From the NCBI RefSeq assembly GCF_003814835.1, contig NZ_RKRG01000002.1:124001-188000 (forward strand): a stretch of 64,000 nt of DNA. Direction: 5' to 3'. A program made the position numbers and the translations under genes. Under the pieces are notes generated by a model. The model saw nothing but the letters and a program-made list of their open reading frames with translations, searched no databases and had not been told where the DNA came from. Source of the stretch: Methanobrevibacter gottschalkii DSM 11977. GTDB lineage: Archaea; Methanobacteriota; Methanobacteria; Methanobacteriales; Methanobacteriaceae. Within the stretch, counting starts at the first letter, position 1; every line of letters starts with the position of its first letter. This document shows, piece by piece, positions 57,420 through 60,797 of the stretch.

Positions 57420-57766
57420 ACAATCACTATTTCATATTTTTTAGTGAATTTCTTTTTATTAGATTAAATTGTTTATTTATAATTTAATGATCAATACGGA
57501 TGTTATTTTTTTTATTTTGAACAATAAGAAATTAATTTTCACTATGATGGATTAATTCTTTATTATTTTAATTATAAAATCCAAATTGATTTAAATTTTA
57601 TTTTTCATCCGATTGTTAAAAATTTAAATCAAATTTAAGATATTTAATCTTATCTTTCTTTATTTCCATTTAATTATTCTTTTATTTTAAATTAATACAT
57701 ATTTTTAGTCTATTTTAATTAATTTACATATTTTTAAGGTGTTTTTAAGTTTTTAAAGTTTTAAAA
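57420..57766. other. AT-rich divergent intergenic region
   Basis: Promoter-bearing sequence between the radical SAM gene and the surface-protein gene. I see no other gene or repeat in this part. Confidence 0.5.
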
Positions 57767-57874
57767 ACATTTATATAATATTAAATCATATGTTTATCTA
57801 CTCATTATGAAATACTATATTTTAGTATACTCATATTTTACTATAAAATTTTCGTAATGAGAACCAAGAGGTGG
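57767..57874 (+). promoter_or_regulatory. Promoter and folded 5' leader of the surface protein
   Basis: A TTTATATAAT box (about 57771) is followed by a leader in which CTCATTATGAAA (57801-57812) pairs with TTTCGTAATGAG (57850-57861), 12 bp with one G-U, enclosing ATACTA/TAGTAT (57812-57828). The stem ends six bases before the ribosome site AGAGGTGG (57867-57874). Confidence 0.55.
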
Positions 57875-57896
57875 AAAAATTTCGATAAAAAACAAA

Positions 57897-60797
57897 GTGT
57901 TATTTATTTCTATTGCATTGATGTTCTTCTTAGTTTTGGGGGTAGTTGGTGCAACAGAATTTAATAATGCTTCAAATACAGAAGATTCAAATTTAATGAC
58001 TGATAATGTTGATTCATTGTCTGTTGAAAATAAATTAGAAGTTTCTAACGAGGATTCTATCTCAGAGGCTAATTTAGTTAATTCTCATGATGATAATTTG
58101 AACAATTATTCTGATAGTGATGTTTTAAGTAACTATGAGGATGATTATGGAAATGTTCAAGCTTCTAATTATGCTGAAATAGGTAATACTAATTCTGTTC
58201 GTAGTGATGTTTTATCTGTTTCTAATGATGATAATTTAGCTGCTAGTTCTAAAGTATCTGCAAAGGTTGATGTAGTTGATACACATTATTCCAAATCCGC
58301 TACATATTTCAAAGTTACTTTGAAAGATACTAAAGGTAATTCTATCAGCAATCAAAAAATTTCTTTTAAAGTTAATGGAGTGACTTACACTGCTACTACT
58401 GATAAAAATGGTATTGCATCAGTTAAAACTGCAGCTTTGTCTGTAGGAACATATACTGTTGCAATTAAATACGCTGGTAGTTCCAAATATGCAGCTGTAG
58501 CTCTTTCAAAGAAAGTTAAAGTATTGTCATCTGTTAGTGGAAGTGATATTACTAAATATTATGGACCTGTTGTCCAGTATTCAGTAAAATTCTGGAAAAA
58601 TTATAATGCATTAGCAAATACTAAAGTATCATTTAAAGTTAATGGGATAACTTATACTAAAACCACTGATAAAAATGGAGTCGCTAAATTACCAGTTAAT
58701 TTGGCTCCTGGAAAATATGTTATTACTACAATTAATCCATATTCTGGTGAAAAATTGTCTAATAAATGTATTTCATTAAGAGATGGTACAACTTTAACCC
58801 ATGGTTCAACTAATACATATATTACTCCTAATAAAAAACATTCATTTACTGTAACTTTAAAATCTAAACACGGTATTTTAATTAAAAACAAAAATGTAGT
58901 ATTTAAATATAATAATAAAAAAGTAACTGTTAAGACTAATTCGAATGGGAAAGCTACTTTGTCTATTCCTGCTCTTTCTAAAGGTACTTATTATATTAGT
59001 TATTCATATTCAGGAGACAAATATTATTCAGGTTCATCTGGATCTGGAAAATTGTATGTAAAAAATCCAACTACTAAAATTACATCTTCAAAATTGAAGA
59101 TGCAATATAAGGATGGATCTAAATTTGCGGTTAAGTTAACAAAAAATGGTAAAGTTTTAGCTAATAAAAAAGTGAAATTAACATTTAATGGAAAAACTTA
59201 TACTGAAAAAACTAATTCAAAGGGTATTGCTTATTTAACTGTCCCTACAGTAAAACCAGCTACTTACAATATTAAATATCAGTATTTAACTCCAAGTTAT
59301 TTTAATTATTGTTATGGCTCAAATAAAATTGTTGTTTCTAAACAAACTGCTAAAGTATCAGCAGGGGATTTAGTGATGAACTATAAAGATGGTTCTGTTT
59401 ATAAAGTTGTTGTAAAAAATAAATTTGGAAACCCTCTTAAAAATATTAAAGTCAAATTTACAATTAACGGAAAAACTTATACTAAAACTACTGATTCAAA
59501 TGGAGTGGCTAAGCAGTCTATTGGTTTAAATATTGGTTATTATTCTGTTAAAACAGTACTTTCTAATAATTATTATGCACATGGCGCTATATATAAACAT
59601 ATTTCAGTTAAAGGAACTAAATTTGTAGGCGGAAATATTCATGTAGCAGTAGGTAAAACTGCATATTATTCAGTAAAATTATTGGATTATAAGAATAATC
59701 CGATTAAAAGTACAGAAGTTACTTTTATTTTGGATGGTAAAAAATACACAGCTACAACTAGTTCAAAAGGTGTTGCTAAAGTAAATTTAGGTGTTTTATC
59801 TGCAGGTACTCATAATGTTAAATATTCACAAGGAGAGTATTCAGGTTCATCTAACATATATGTTGCTGATAAAGTGACTATTAAGCAAATTATTGCTGCA
59901 TCTGGAAATGTGCAAAAGTATATTCAAAAAAATCATAGATTACCTTCCACAGTTAATATTGGGGGTGTTACTTATTCAACTAATCAATATTTATATTTAG
60001 TTTCAAAAGCTATTGTAAATTTAAAATCTAATGTTAAATCTGCAATTTATGTTAAAAATGTCGATGGTCCAAGTAATCCTTCATCAACATATGCTGCAGG
60101 TAATTTATATGATTATCTTTCAGTTGCAAATAGTGTTGTGAAAAATTCTGATTCAAAAGGTAGTGTACCTAATACTGTTAGTTCTAAAGTTGGAACTATT
60201 GGTTATAAAAGTTTAGTTTATGCGTTTGCTCGTGTTGTTGCATTTTATGGTGATGATGATAGATTGCCATCATTTGTTGAAATAAAATCACTAAGTGGTA
60301 CTAGTTCAGATAGTAATATTAACTCTAAAAATACTATTTCAAACTTAAAAGCATATTTGGCAGCATCAACTAATTGCCAGGTTAATAATGCTAAAATTAA
60401 ACAATTAGTTGGCAAATTAACTAATGGGTTGAAGAGTGAAAAATCTAAAGCAACTGCAATTTATAATTATGTGAGAGATACAATTTCATATAGTTTCTAT
60501 TATGATACTAAACACGGTGCTGTTGGAACATTGAATGCTAAATCTGGAAATTGTGTTGATCATTCCCATTTGCTTGCTGCTATGTTTAGAACTGCAGGTC
60601 TTGCAACTAGATATGTGCATGGGTCATGTACATTTTCTAGTGGAAGTACATATGGGCATGTTTGGACTCAAGTATTGATTGATAATACTTGGACTGTTGC
60701 TGATGCAACAAGTTCTAGAAACTCGTTAGGAAAAATAGCTAATTGGAATACTAAGTCTTATAGGCTTAATGGATACTATTCCAGTCTTCCATTCTAA
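57897..60797 (+). CDS. Large secreted Ig-repeat protein with pseudomurein-binding repeats and transglutaminase-like domain
   Basis: This protein of about 966 residues has a signal peptide (ending GVVGATEF) and an Asn/Asp-rich stretch. It then has six Ig-like repeats of about 85-95 residues (120-660), two pseudomurein-binding repeats (about 662-711, QKYIQKNHRLPSTVNIGG; and 737-800) and a C-terminal transglutaminase-like domain with Cys886, His921 and Asp936 (SGNCVDHSH, YGHVWTQV, VADATSS). This resembles phage pseudomurein endoisopeptidases. GTG 57897 is listed, but the ribosome site fits an upstream ATT (57879) or ATA (57885), which would add the usual Lys residues. It probably remodels or anchors to the cell wall. 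Confidence 0.85.
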   Translation: MLFISIALMFFLVLGVVGATEFNNASNTEDSNLMTDNVDSLSVENKLEVSNEDSISEANLVNSHDDNLNNYSDSDVLSNYEDDYGNVQASNYAEIGNTNSVRSDVLSVSNDDNLAASSKVSAKVDVVDTHYSKSATYFKVTLKDTKGNSISNQKISFKVNGVTYTATTDKNGIASVKTAALSVGTYTVAIKYAGSSKYAAVALSKKVKVLSSVSGSDITKYYGPVVQYSVKFWKNYNALANTKVSFKVNGITYTKTTDKNGVAKLPVNLAPGKYVITTINPYSGEKLSNKCISLRDGTTLTHGSTNTYITPNKKHSFTVTLKSKHGILIKNKNVVFKYNNKKVTVKTNSNGKATLSIPALSKGTYYISYSYSGDKYYSGSSGSGKLYVKNPTTKITSSKLKMQYKDGSKFAVKLTKNGKVLANKKVKLTFNGKTYTEKTNSKGIAYLTVPTVKPATYNIKYQYLTPSYFNYCYGSNKIVVSKQTAKVSAGDLVMNYKDGSVYKVVVKNKFGNPLKNIKVKFTINGKTYTKTTDSNGVAKQSIGLNIGYYSVKTVLSNNYYAHGAIYKHISVKGTKFVGGNIHVAVGKTAYYSVKLLDYKNNPIKSTEVTFILDGKKYTATTSSKGVAKVNLGVLSAGTHNVKYSQGEYSGSSNIYVADKVTIKQIIAASGNVQKYIQKNHRLPSTVNIGGVTYSTNQYLYLVSKAIVNLKSNVKSAIYVKNVDGPSNPSSTYAAGNLYDYLSVANSVVKNSDSKGSVPNTVSSKVGTIGYKSLVYAFARVVAFYGDDDRLPSFVEIKSLSGTSSDSNINSKNTISNLKAYLAASTNCQVNNAKIKQLVGKLTNGLKSEKSKATAIYNYVRDTISYSFYYDTKHGAVGTLNAKSGNCVDHSHLLAAMFRTAGLATRYVHGSCTFSSGSTYGHVWTQVLIDNTWTVADATSSRNSLGKIANWNTKSYRLNGYYSSLPF

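Follow-up and report, generated by a model that had tools for sequence, protein, structure and literature searches.

A predicted wall transglutaminase of Methanobrevibacter with a probable AUU start codon and a conserved leader

Exported transglutaminases are the published best candidates for the enzymes that cross-link pseudomurein (PMC11915815). What, then, is made by a long reading frame of Methanobrevibacter gottschalkii DSM 11977 in which pseudomurein-binding (PMB) repeats are joined to a Cys-His-Asp domain – and where does its translation begin? The frame (57897-60797, forward strand) lies in a stretch of 64,000 nucleotides, here called the window, from a genome of 1.88 Mb in six contigs. 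A sequence-only reading had described the product as a cell-encoded protein with a signal peptide, Ig-like repeats and wall-binding repeats, and had seen in it a possible wall-remodelling enzyme or cross-linking adhesin rather than a simple adhesin.

A core, syntenic gene and its domains

The reading frame is real and sits in a conserved gene neighbourhood, with a CDF (cation) transporter, an aminotransferase and a radical SAM gene on one side and coaD, a ferredoxin and a polyferredoxin on the other. This set of neighbours is unchanged in the examined Methanobrevibacter loci that carry the orthologue, and the syntenic locus is also present in a genome that we take to be M. smithii. Two long PMB-transglutaminase proteins are encoded in the M. 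gottschalkii genome: the present gene is the core, syntenic, genus-wide copy of Methanobrevibacter. A relative of its C-terminal module occurs in 119 of 120 Methanobacteriaceae genomes, spanning all 17 genera. The PMBR repeat was found in 147 of the phylum's 152 genomes; all 14 control genomes lack it.

57879..60797, forward: whole coding sequence from the probable AUU, 972 aa (list of reading frames and orthologue comparison)
57879..57953, forward: predicted signal peptide, MSIKNKVLFISIALMFFLVLGVVGA (sequence)
58248..59861, forward: six bacterial Ig-like repeats (Pfam Big_1/Big_3_5; six units readable in the translation)
59862..60296, forward: PMB domain of four helix-strand units (AlphaFold2 model and Pfam, which detects units 1 and 4)
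60342..60794, forward: transglutaminase-like catalytic domain (Pfam PF01841; AlphaFold2 model; Foldseek)
60552..60554, forward: Cys886, putative nucleophile at a helix N-terminus (translation, alignment, model)
60657..60659, forward: His921, invariant in the alignment and aligned with PeiW/PeiP
60702..60704, forward: Asp936, invariant in the alignment and inside Transglut_core, with no Asp of PeiW/PeiP opposite

Read from the ATT at 57879, the coding sequence specifies 972 amino acids and is six codons longer upstream than from the GTG at 57897. An export signal, as claimed earlier, appears to be visible at its N-terminus, and the claim of six Ig-like repeats is borne out both by Pfam (Big_1/Big_3_5, E 1e-31) and by the units seen in the translation. 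The Pfam matches include no beta-helix family: a single N-terminal anchor or signal and the Ig-like repeats are present, and the PMB repeat adjoins the C-terminal transglutaminase domain. Searches of the protein against PHROGs and NCBIfam profiles gave nothing useful. The protein is cell-encoded and carries predicted wall-binding repeats, as had been read from the sequence alone.

Two such repeats had been read ahead of the catalytic domain. Repeats are indeed present – PMBR is matched twice, at residues 658-686 and 766-794 – but the number differs in the AlphaFold2 model, where four helix-strand units are predicted against the two found by Pfam; the alignment, too, points to four. A Pro motif occurs in three of the four (LPSTV, VPNTV and LPSFV), and in the homologue from virus Drs3 it is unit 3 that gives the best Pfam match to PMBR. 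For MTH719, at least three PMB motifs are required for pseudomurein binding (PMC3124540).

Other arrangements of related modules were seen. The same genome encodes a 272-aa protein with PMBR and Peptidase_C71 (G000:C2 about 58725-59546; L239:2226-3047), without a signal peptide, which scores 27 bits on C71 against a cut-off of 22 and resembles a phage-type pseudomurein lysin. In other genera (L229-L232 and L110) Tyr/Lys-rich repeats and a hydrolase-like stretch (HLDYLRYPG) lie between the signal peptide and the transglutaminase region.

The catalytic domain and its likely reaction

The three residues singled out by the sequence-only reading are present in the translation at the positions given there. 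All 14 aligned sequences share His921 and Asp936, and 13 share Cys886, the exception being a paralogue (L063) with Gly in its place. The further claim, that the triad has the layout of the phage endoisopeptidases, holds for Cys886 and His921, which align with PeiW/PeiP, but not for Asp936, which aligns with a Ser of these enzymes and sits where transglutaminases carry their Asp. By sequence the domain is Transglut_core (PF01841; residues 836-937, E 1.7e-23, profile positions 2-108 of 108). Peptidase_C71 (PF12386) is matched at 22.2 bits against a cut-off of 22.0 (24.1 bits for the C-terminal fragment), over profile positions 16-97 of 149 only: PeiW/PeiP score 296-319 bits on the same profile, as against 22-24 here. 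The closest viral relative by sequence is the PMBR-transglutaminase protein of virus Drs3 (31.5% over 98%, E 3e-45), PeiP is matched only at E 0.5, and a scan of viral contigs found no relative. A domain specifically of the phage Pei (C71) type is therefore not what the sequence comparisons indicate.

The fold gives a slightly different ranking. In an AlphaFold2 model built from 14 sequences (mean pLDDT 78, pTM 0.51) the catalytic Cys is placed at a helix N-terminus, with His and Asp on or beside adjacent strands. When the C-terminal 311 residues were submitted to Foldseek, the top PDB match was complete PeiP (8z4f_A, E 8.8e-11, 315 alignment columns), followed by the bacterial transglutaminase-like 3isr, with the PeiW catalytic domain ranking lower (target-normalised TM 0.60); PeiP was again first in the viral structure library. 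Global TM-scores are low (about 0.3), which makes the domain orientation in the model unreliable. As modelled, then, the domain has a transglutaminase/endoisopeptidase fold: in the structural comparison with PeiW/PeiP that had been proposed, the PeiP fold is matched and the topology is the expected one; by sequence the Asp is aligned elsewhere. The domain may work like the Pei family; with a C71 match that is partial and at the cut-off, and with Asp936 opposite no Pei Asp, it is a borderline candidate for membership. We claim no evolutionary direction, since the Pei branches are very long in a tree that includes them.

Two further cysteines, Cys827 (60375-60377) and Cys911 (60627-60629), are invariant in the alignment even where the catalytic Cys is lost, and may have a disulfide or other structural role. 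In the Methanobrevibacter paralogue without the catalytic Cys (L063:6001-6477; GNGVDH), His, Asp and these two cysteines are kept, and the gene has an ATG start.

What would such a protein do? We consider it probable that it is a host enzyme acting on the isopeptide bonds of pseudomurein: exported, docked on the wall, and limited in its synthesis at initiation by AUU. A Sec signal peptide would export the protein, the six Ig-like domains would serve as a spacer, and the four-unit PMB domain would dock it on pseudomurein. Cys886-His921-Asp936 would then form an acyl-enzyme on a wall peptide, the acyl group being passed to a lysine epsilon-amino group, in cross-linking, or to water, in remodelling. 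Acyl transfer seems somewhat more likely than cutting as the reaction.

Cutting would be the task of a host endoisopeptidase – an autolysin whose domain would, in the manner of PeiW/PeiP, hydrolyse Ala-epsilon-Lys cross-links as the cell grows or divides or as its wall is turned over. The order of PMB and catalytic domains and the fold match full-length PeiP, Cys and His align with PeiW/PeiP, and AUU-limited synthesis would suit a potentially lytic enzyme; set against this, C71 is reached only at threshold, the Asp position differs and the sequence match to PeiP has an E of just 0.5, so that an autolysin is a possible reading that we hold tentatively. A more remote one is that of an adhesin that cross-links itself or its neighbours via protein-protein isopeptide bonds, and thus serves attachment rather than wall chemistry. 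The Ig-like array would fit, as would the classing of this architecture among adhesin-like proteins in the published description of such architectures (PMC11532034). However, the PMB domain adjoins the catalytic domain and would place it at the wall, and core syntenic conservation is unlike that expected for variable adhesins: this reading we regard as improbable. An enzyme rather than a simple adhesin, as the sequence-only reading had it, is the better view because the Cys-His-Asp set is kept order-wide.

The 5' end: start codon and leader

The most unusual conserved feature of the locus is its 5' end, where a promoter-like element and a leader precede the gene.

57763..57777, forward: archaeal promoter-like BRE/TATA element, AAAAACATTTATATA, almost unchanged across the upstream regions of 29 orthologues
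57801..57811, forward: 5' arm of leader stem P1, CTCATTATGAA (alignments; helix pairing; leader fold z)
57812..57828, forward: small variable hairpin P2 (ATACTA...TAGTAT), tentative (83-91% of cells paired)
57851..57861, forward: 3' arm of leader stem P1, TTCGTAATGAG (alignments), which also supplies the main-frame stops TAA TGA
57868..57873, forward: Shine-Dalgarno GAGGTG, at aligned spacing 3 to ATT
57879..57881, forward: probable true start codon ATT (AUU), invariant in orthologues and part of an order-wide pattern

When orthologues are compared, no ATG, GTG or TTG is conserved at the gene start. The constant element is ATT, and the codons that follow ATT-TC are variable. The near-identical DNA block shared by orthologues ends GAGGTGGAAAAATTTC and places ATT 5 nt after AGGTG, a distance that is also the commonest AGGTG-to-ATG spacing in the window (five of nine Shine-Dalgarno-led ATG genes; range 5-8). 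Main-frame stops, TAA TGA, stand directly upstream in most orthologues. With ATT as the start the signal peptide would be a normal one, its n-region basic; any start later than 57885 would lose this n-region. Among the 52 long reading frames of the window it is the sole one with ATT behind a strong, well-spaced Shine-Dalgarno and no canonical alternative; two others showed only an ATC in that survey. One count of ATT, 52 of 52, holds by construction, the search pattern having required ATTTC: the unforced evidence comes from the upstream comparisons of orthologues, the matches of the leader model, the order-wide reading of homologues and the exact-motif search. The GTG at 57897, from which the frame had been taken to start, is unconserved in orthologues, and translation probably begins at the AUU at 57879 instead.

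We think it unlikely that translation starts elsewhere – on a canonical codon further downstream, or on the ATG at 57857 upstream with a frameshift to follow – with AUU simply part of a conserved RNA motif. M. gottschalkii does have its own GTG at 57897; in some homologues an ATG or TTG lies close to the hydrophobic core, and a few homologues carry the upstream ATG in the reading frame. Yet no canonical codon is conserved downstream, where the basic n-region would be lost, and the Shine-Dalgarno spacing fits AUU only. A programmed frameshift from ATG 57857 was rejected on its unconserved frame and on early stops in several orthologues, and an in-frame upstream reading frame from 57807 was rejected as unconserved.

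The preference for AUU extends across the order. N-terminal sequence was read for 56 homologues, drawn from other genera and families and from paralogous groups, and in 39 of 51 interpretable starts ATT (in a few cases ATA or ATC) stands at an aligned spacing of 2-4; seven are an ambiguous ATT-TTG and five are ATG. Genomes with the ATT start include those that we take to be M. ruminantium M1 and Msp. stadtmanae and, likewise, M. thermautotrophicus dH. A search for the exact motif GGAGGCGGTAAAATD gave 11 occurrences in ten genomes, the last base being T every time; behind it stand genes for secreted proteins that belong to the transglutaminase family or lie at its edge, one of these genes being cut by a contig end. 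For GAGGTGRAAAAATD, 15 genomes yielded 20 matches with ATT, of which 17 belong to the family as judged from their position; the remaining matches of this motif mostly lead to ATG, as expected of ordinary genes.

AUU is neither universal in the family nor exclusive to it. That ATG starts go with lost catalysis was rejected, since ATG paralogues keep the triad (although the Cys-less L063 uses ATG); that AUU is confined to transglutaminases was likewise rejected on the evidence of a 629-aa adhesin-like protein. This protein (L278; G049:C1 near 784257) has a membrane segment at its C-terminus, lacks the transglutaminase domain and starts GAGGTGAAAAAATT, which suggests AUU starts in other surface proteins.

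The leader itself is conserved. From the transcription start, predicted from spacing to lie near 57797, to the start codon, Methanobrevibacter sequences have a mean identity of 94% to the window; the figure is 70% both in the DNA before the leader and in the 90 coding bases that follow it. The leader folds better than shuffled sequence (z -2.98), and its 11-bp stem P1 links the 5' end to the segment just before the Shine-Dalgarno. A first count of pairs, confined to close relatives, found no covariation; once more distant members were included, pairing held in 98% of P1 cells and two P1 pairs were changed on both sides, P1 being so invariant that covariation is weak. For the whole structure 11 of 500 shuffles equal the measure of both-side change, so that the support is modest. 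It is doubtful that the arms are instead a DNA operator for a regulator: their near-invariance would suit an operator, but the two pairs changed on both sides would not, nor would the stem-loops of unrelated sequence found upstream in other genera.

A covariance model of the leader matched 58 genomes of the genus; it also matched two from a sister genus, and a single weak match elsewhere proved false. The matches that were read precede a gene of the transglutaminase family, save weak ones judged false. A search of the 5' region against Rfam found nothing above chance. In other genera the leader sequence differs, and folding upstream of the Shine-Dalgarno is stronger than in control genes (mean z -1.40 against -0.35, p 6e-5), with the reservation that some controls belong to operons and that the homologues are related to one another. 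In one genome (G073, L104:8013-8183) a tandem duplication includes the gene and its leader, of which one copy has diverged.

Since start codons outside the canonical set are selected against by archaeal aIF1 (PMC6237735), an AUU start should lower expression of this gene. On the proposed mechanism, the mRNA would begin with the stem-loop leader and be read from AUU behind the strong Shine-Dalgarno; AUU would hold translation down, and the leader would stabilise the mRNA or modulate ribosome access. We think it fairly likely that AUU is, throughout the order Methanobacteriales, a deliberate start codon of the wall transglutaminases – combined in Methanobrevibacter with a structured leader specific to the genus – as a form of archaeal initiation control. 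If so, the 5' ends of such genes are likely mis-annotated, constructs made from a downstream start would be without a proper signal peptide, and archaea would use the choice of start codon as a conserved control. Among the candidates for cross-linking pseudomurein, the syntenic core gene found in each Methanobrevibacter genome is the first one to test.

Comparison with known systems

The architecture is that of the published Group-III transglutaminase-type adhesin-like proteins of M. smithii and Msp. stadtmanae: an N-terminal membrane or signal segment, Ig-like (ABD) repeats, and a PMB repeat beside a C-terminal transglutaminase domain, with no architectural difference from the published outline; the sections of that work describing these proteins do not discuss start codon, leader or synteny (PMC11532034). 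A role of transglutaminases in cross-linking pseudomurein was suggested in 2010, and no penicillin-binding-protein-like transpeptidases are known in pseudomurein archaea (PMC2812497); in 2025 the exported transglutaminase orthogroup OG0000044 was named the best candidate (PMC11915815). The present gene resembles this orthogroup of exported host transglutaminases by description, and is a candidate member. Since both architecture and cross-linking role have thus been published or proposed, the enzyme idea is not new.

PeiW/PeiP (family C71) share a PMB domain followed by a Cys-His-Asp domain, the same fold and, on the model of the present protein, four PMB units; they differ in being phage-encoded, in having no Ig array and in carrying the Asp at another position. 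ORF35 of Methanobacterium virus Drs3 (AXN53416.1), itself Transglut_core plus PMBR in Pfam, shares 31.5% identity across 98% of the PMB-transglutaminase module and has the same motif order. It differs in being viral and without an Ig array, and its annotated CDS begins directly at the PMB module.

What is new here is the unconserved GTG, the probable AUU start conserved order-wide and the conserved Methanobrevibacter leader. In a search of open-access papers, none was found that describes AUU starts of this sort in archaea. In bacteria, infC and pcnB use a conserved AUU start to limit their translation. The likeness to the archaeal gene is the conserved AUU itself; the differences are another domain of life, another gene and, at the present locus, a regulation that we infer from that conserved codon.
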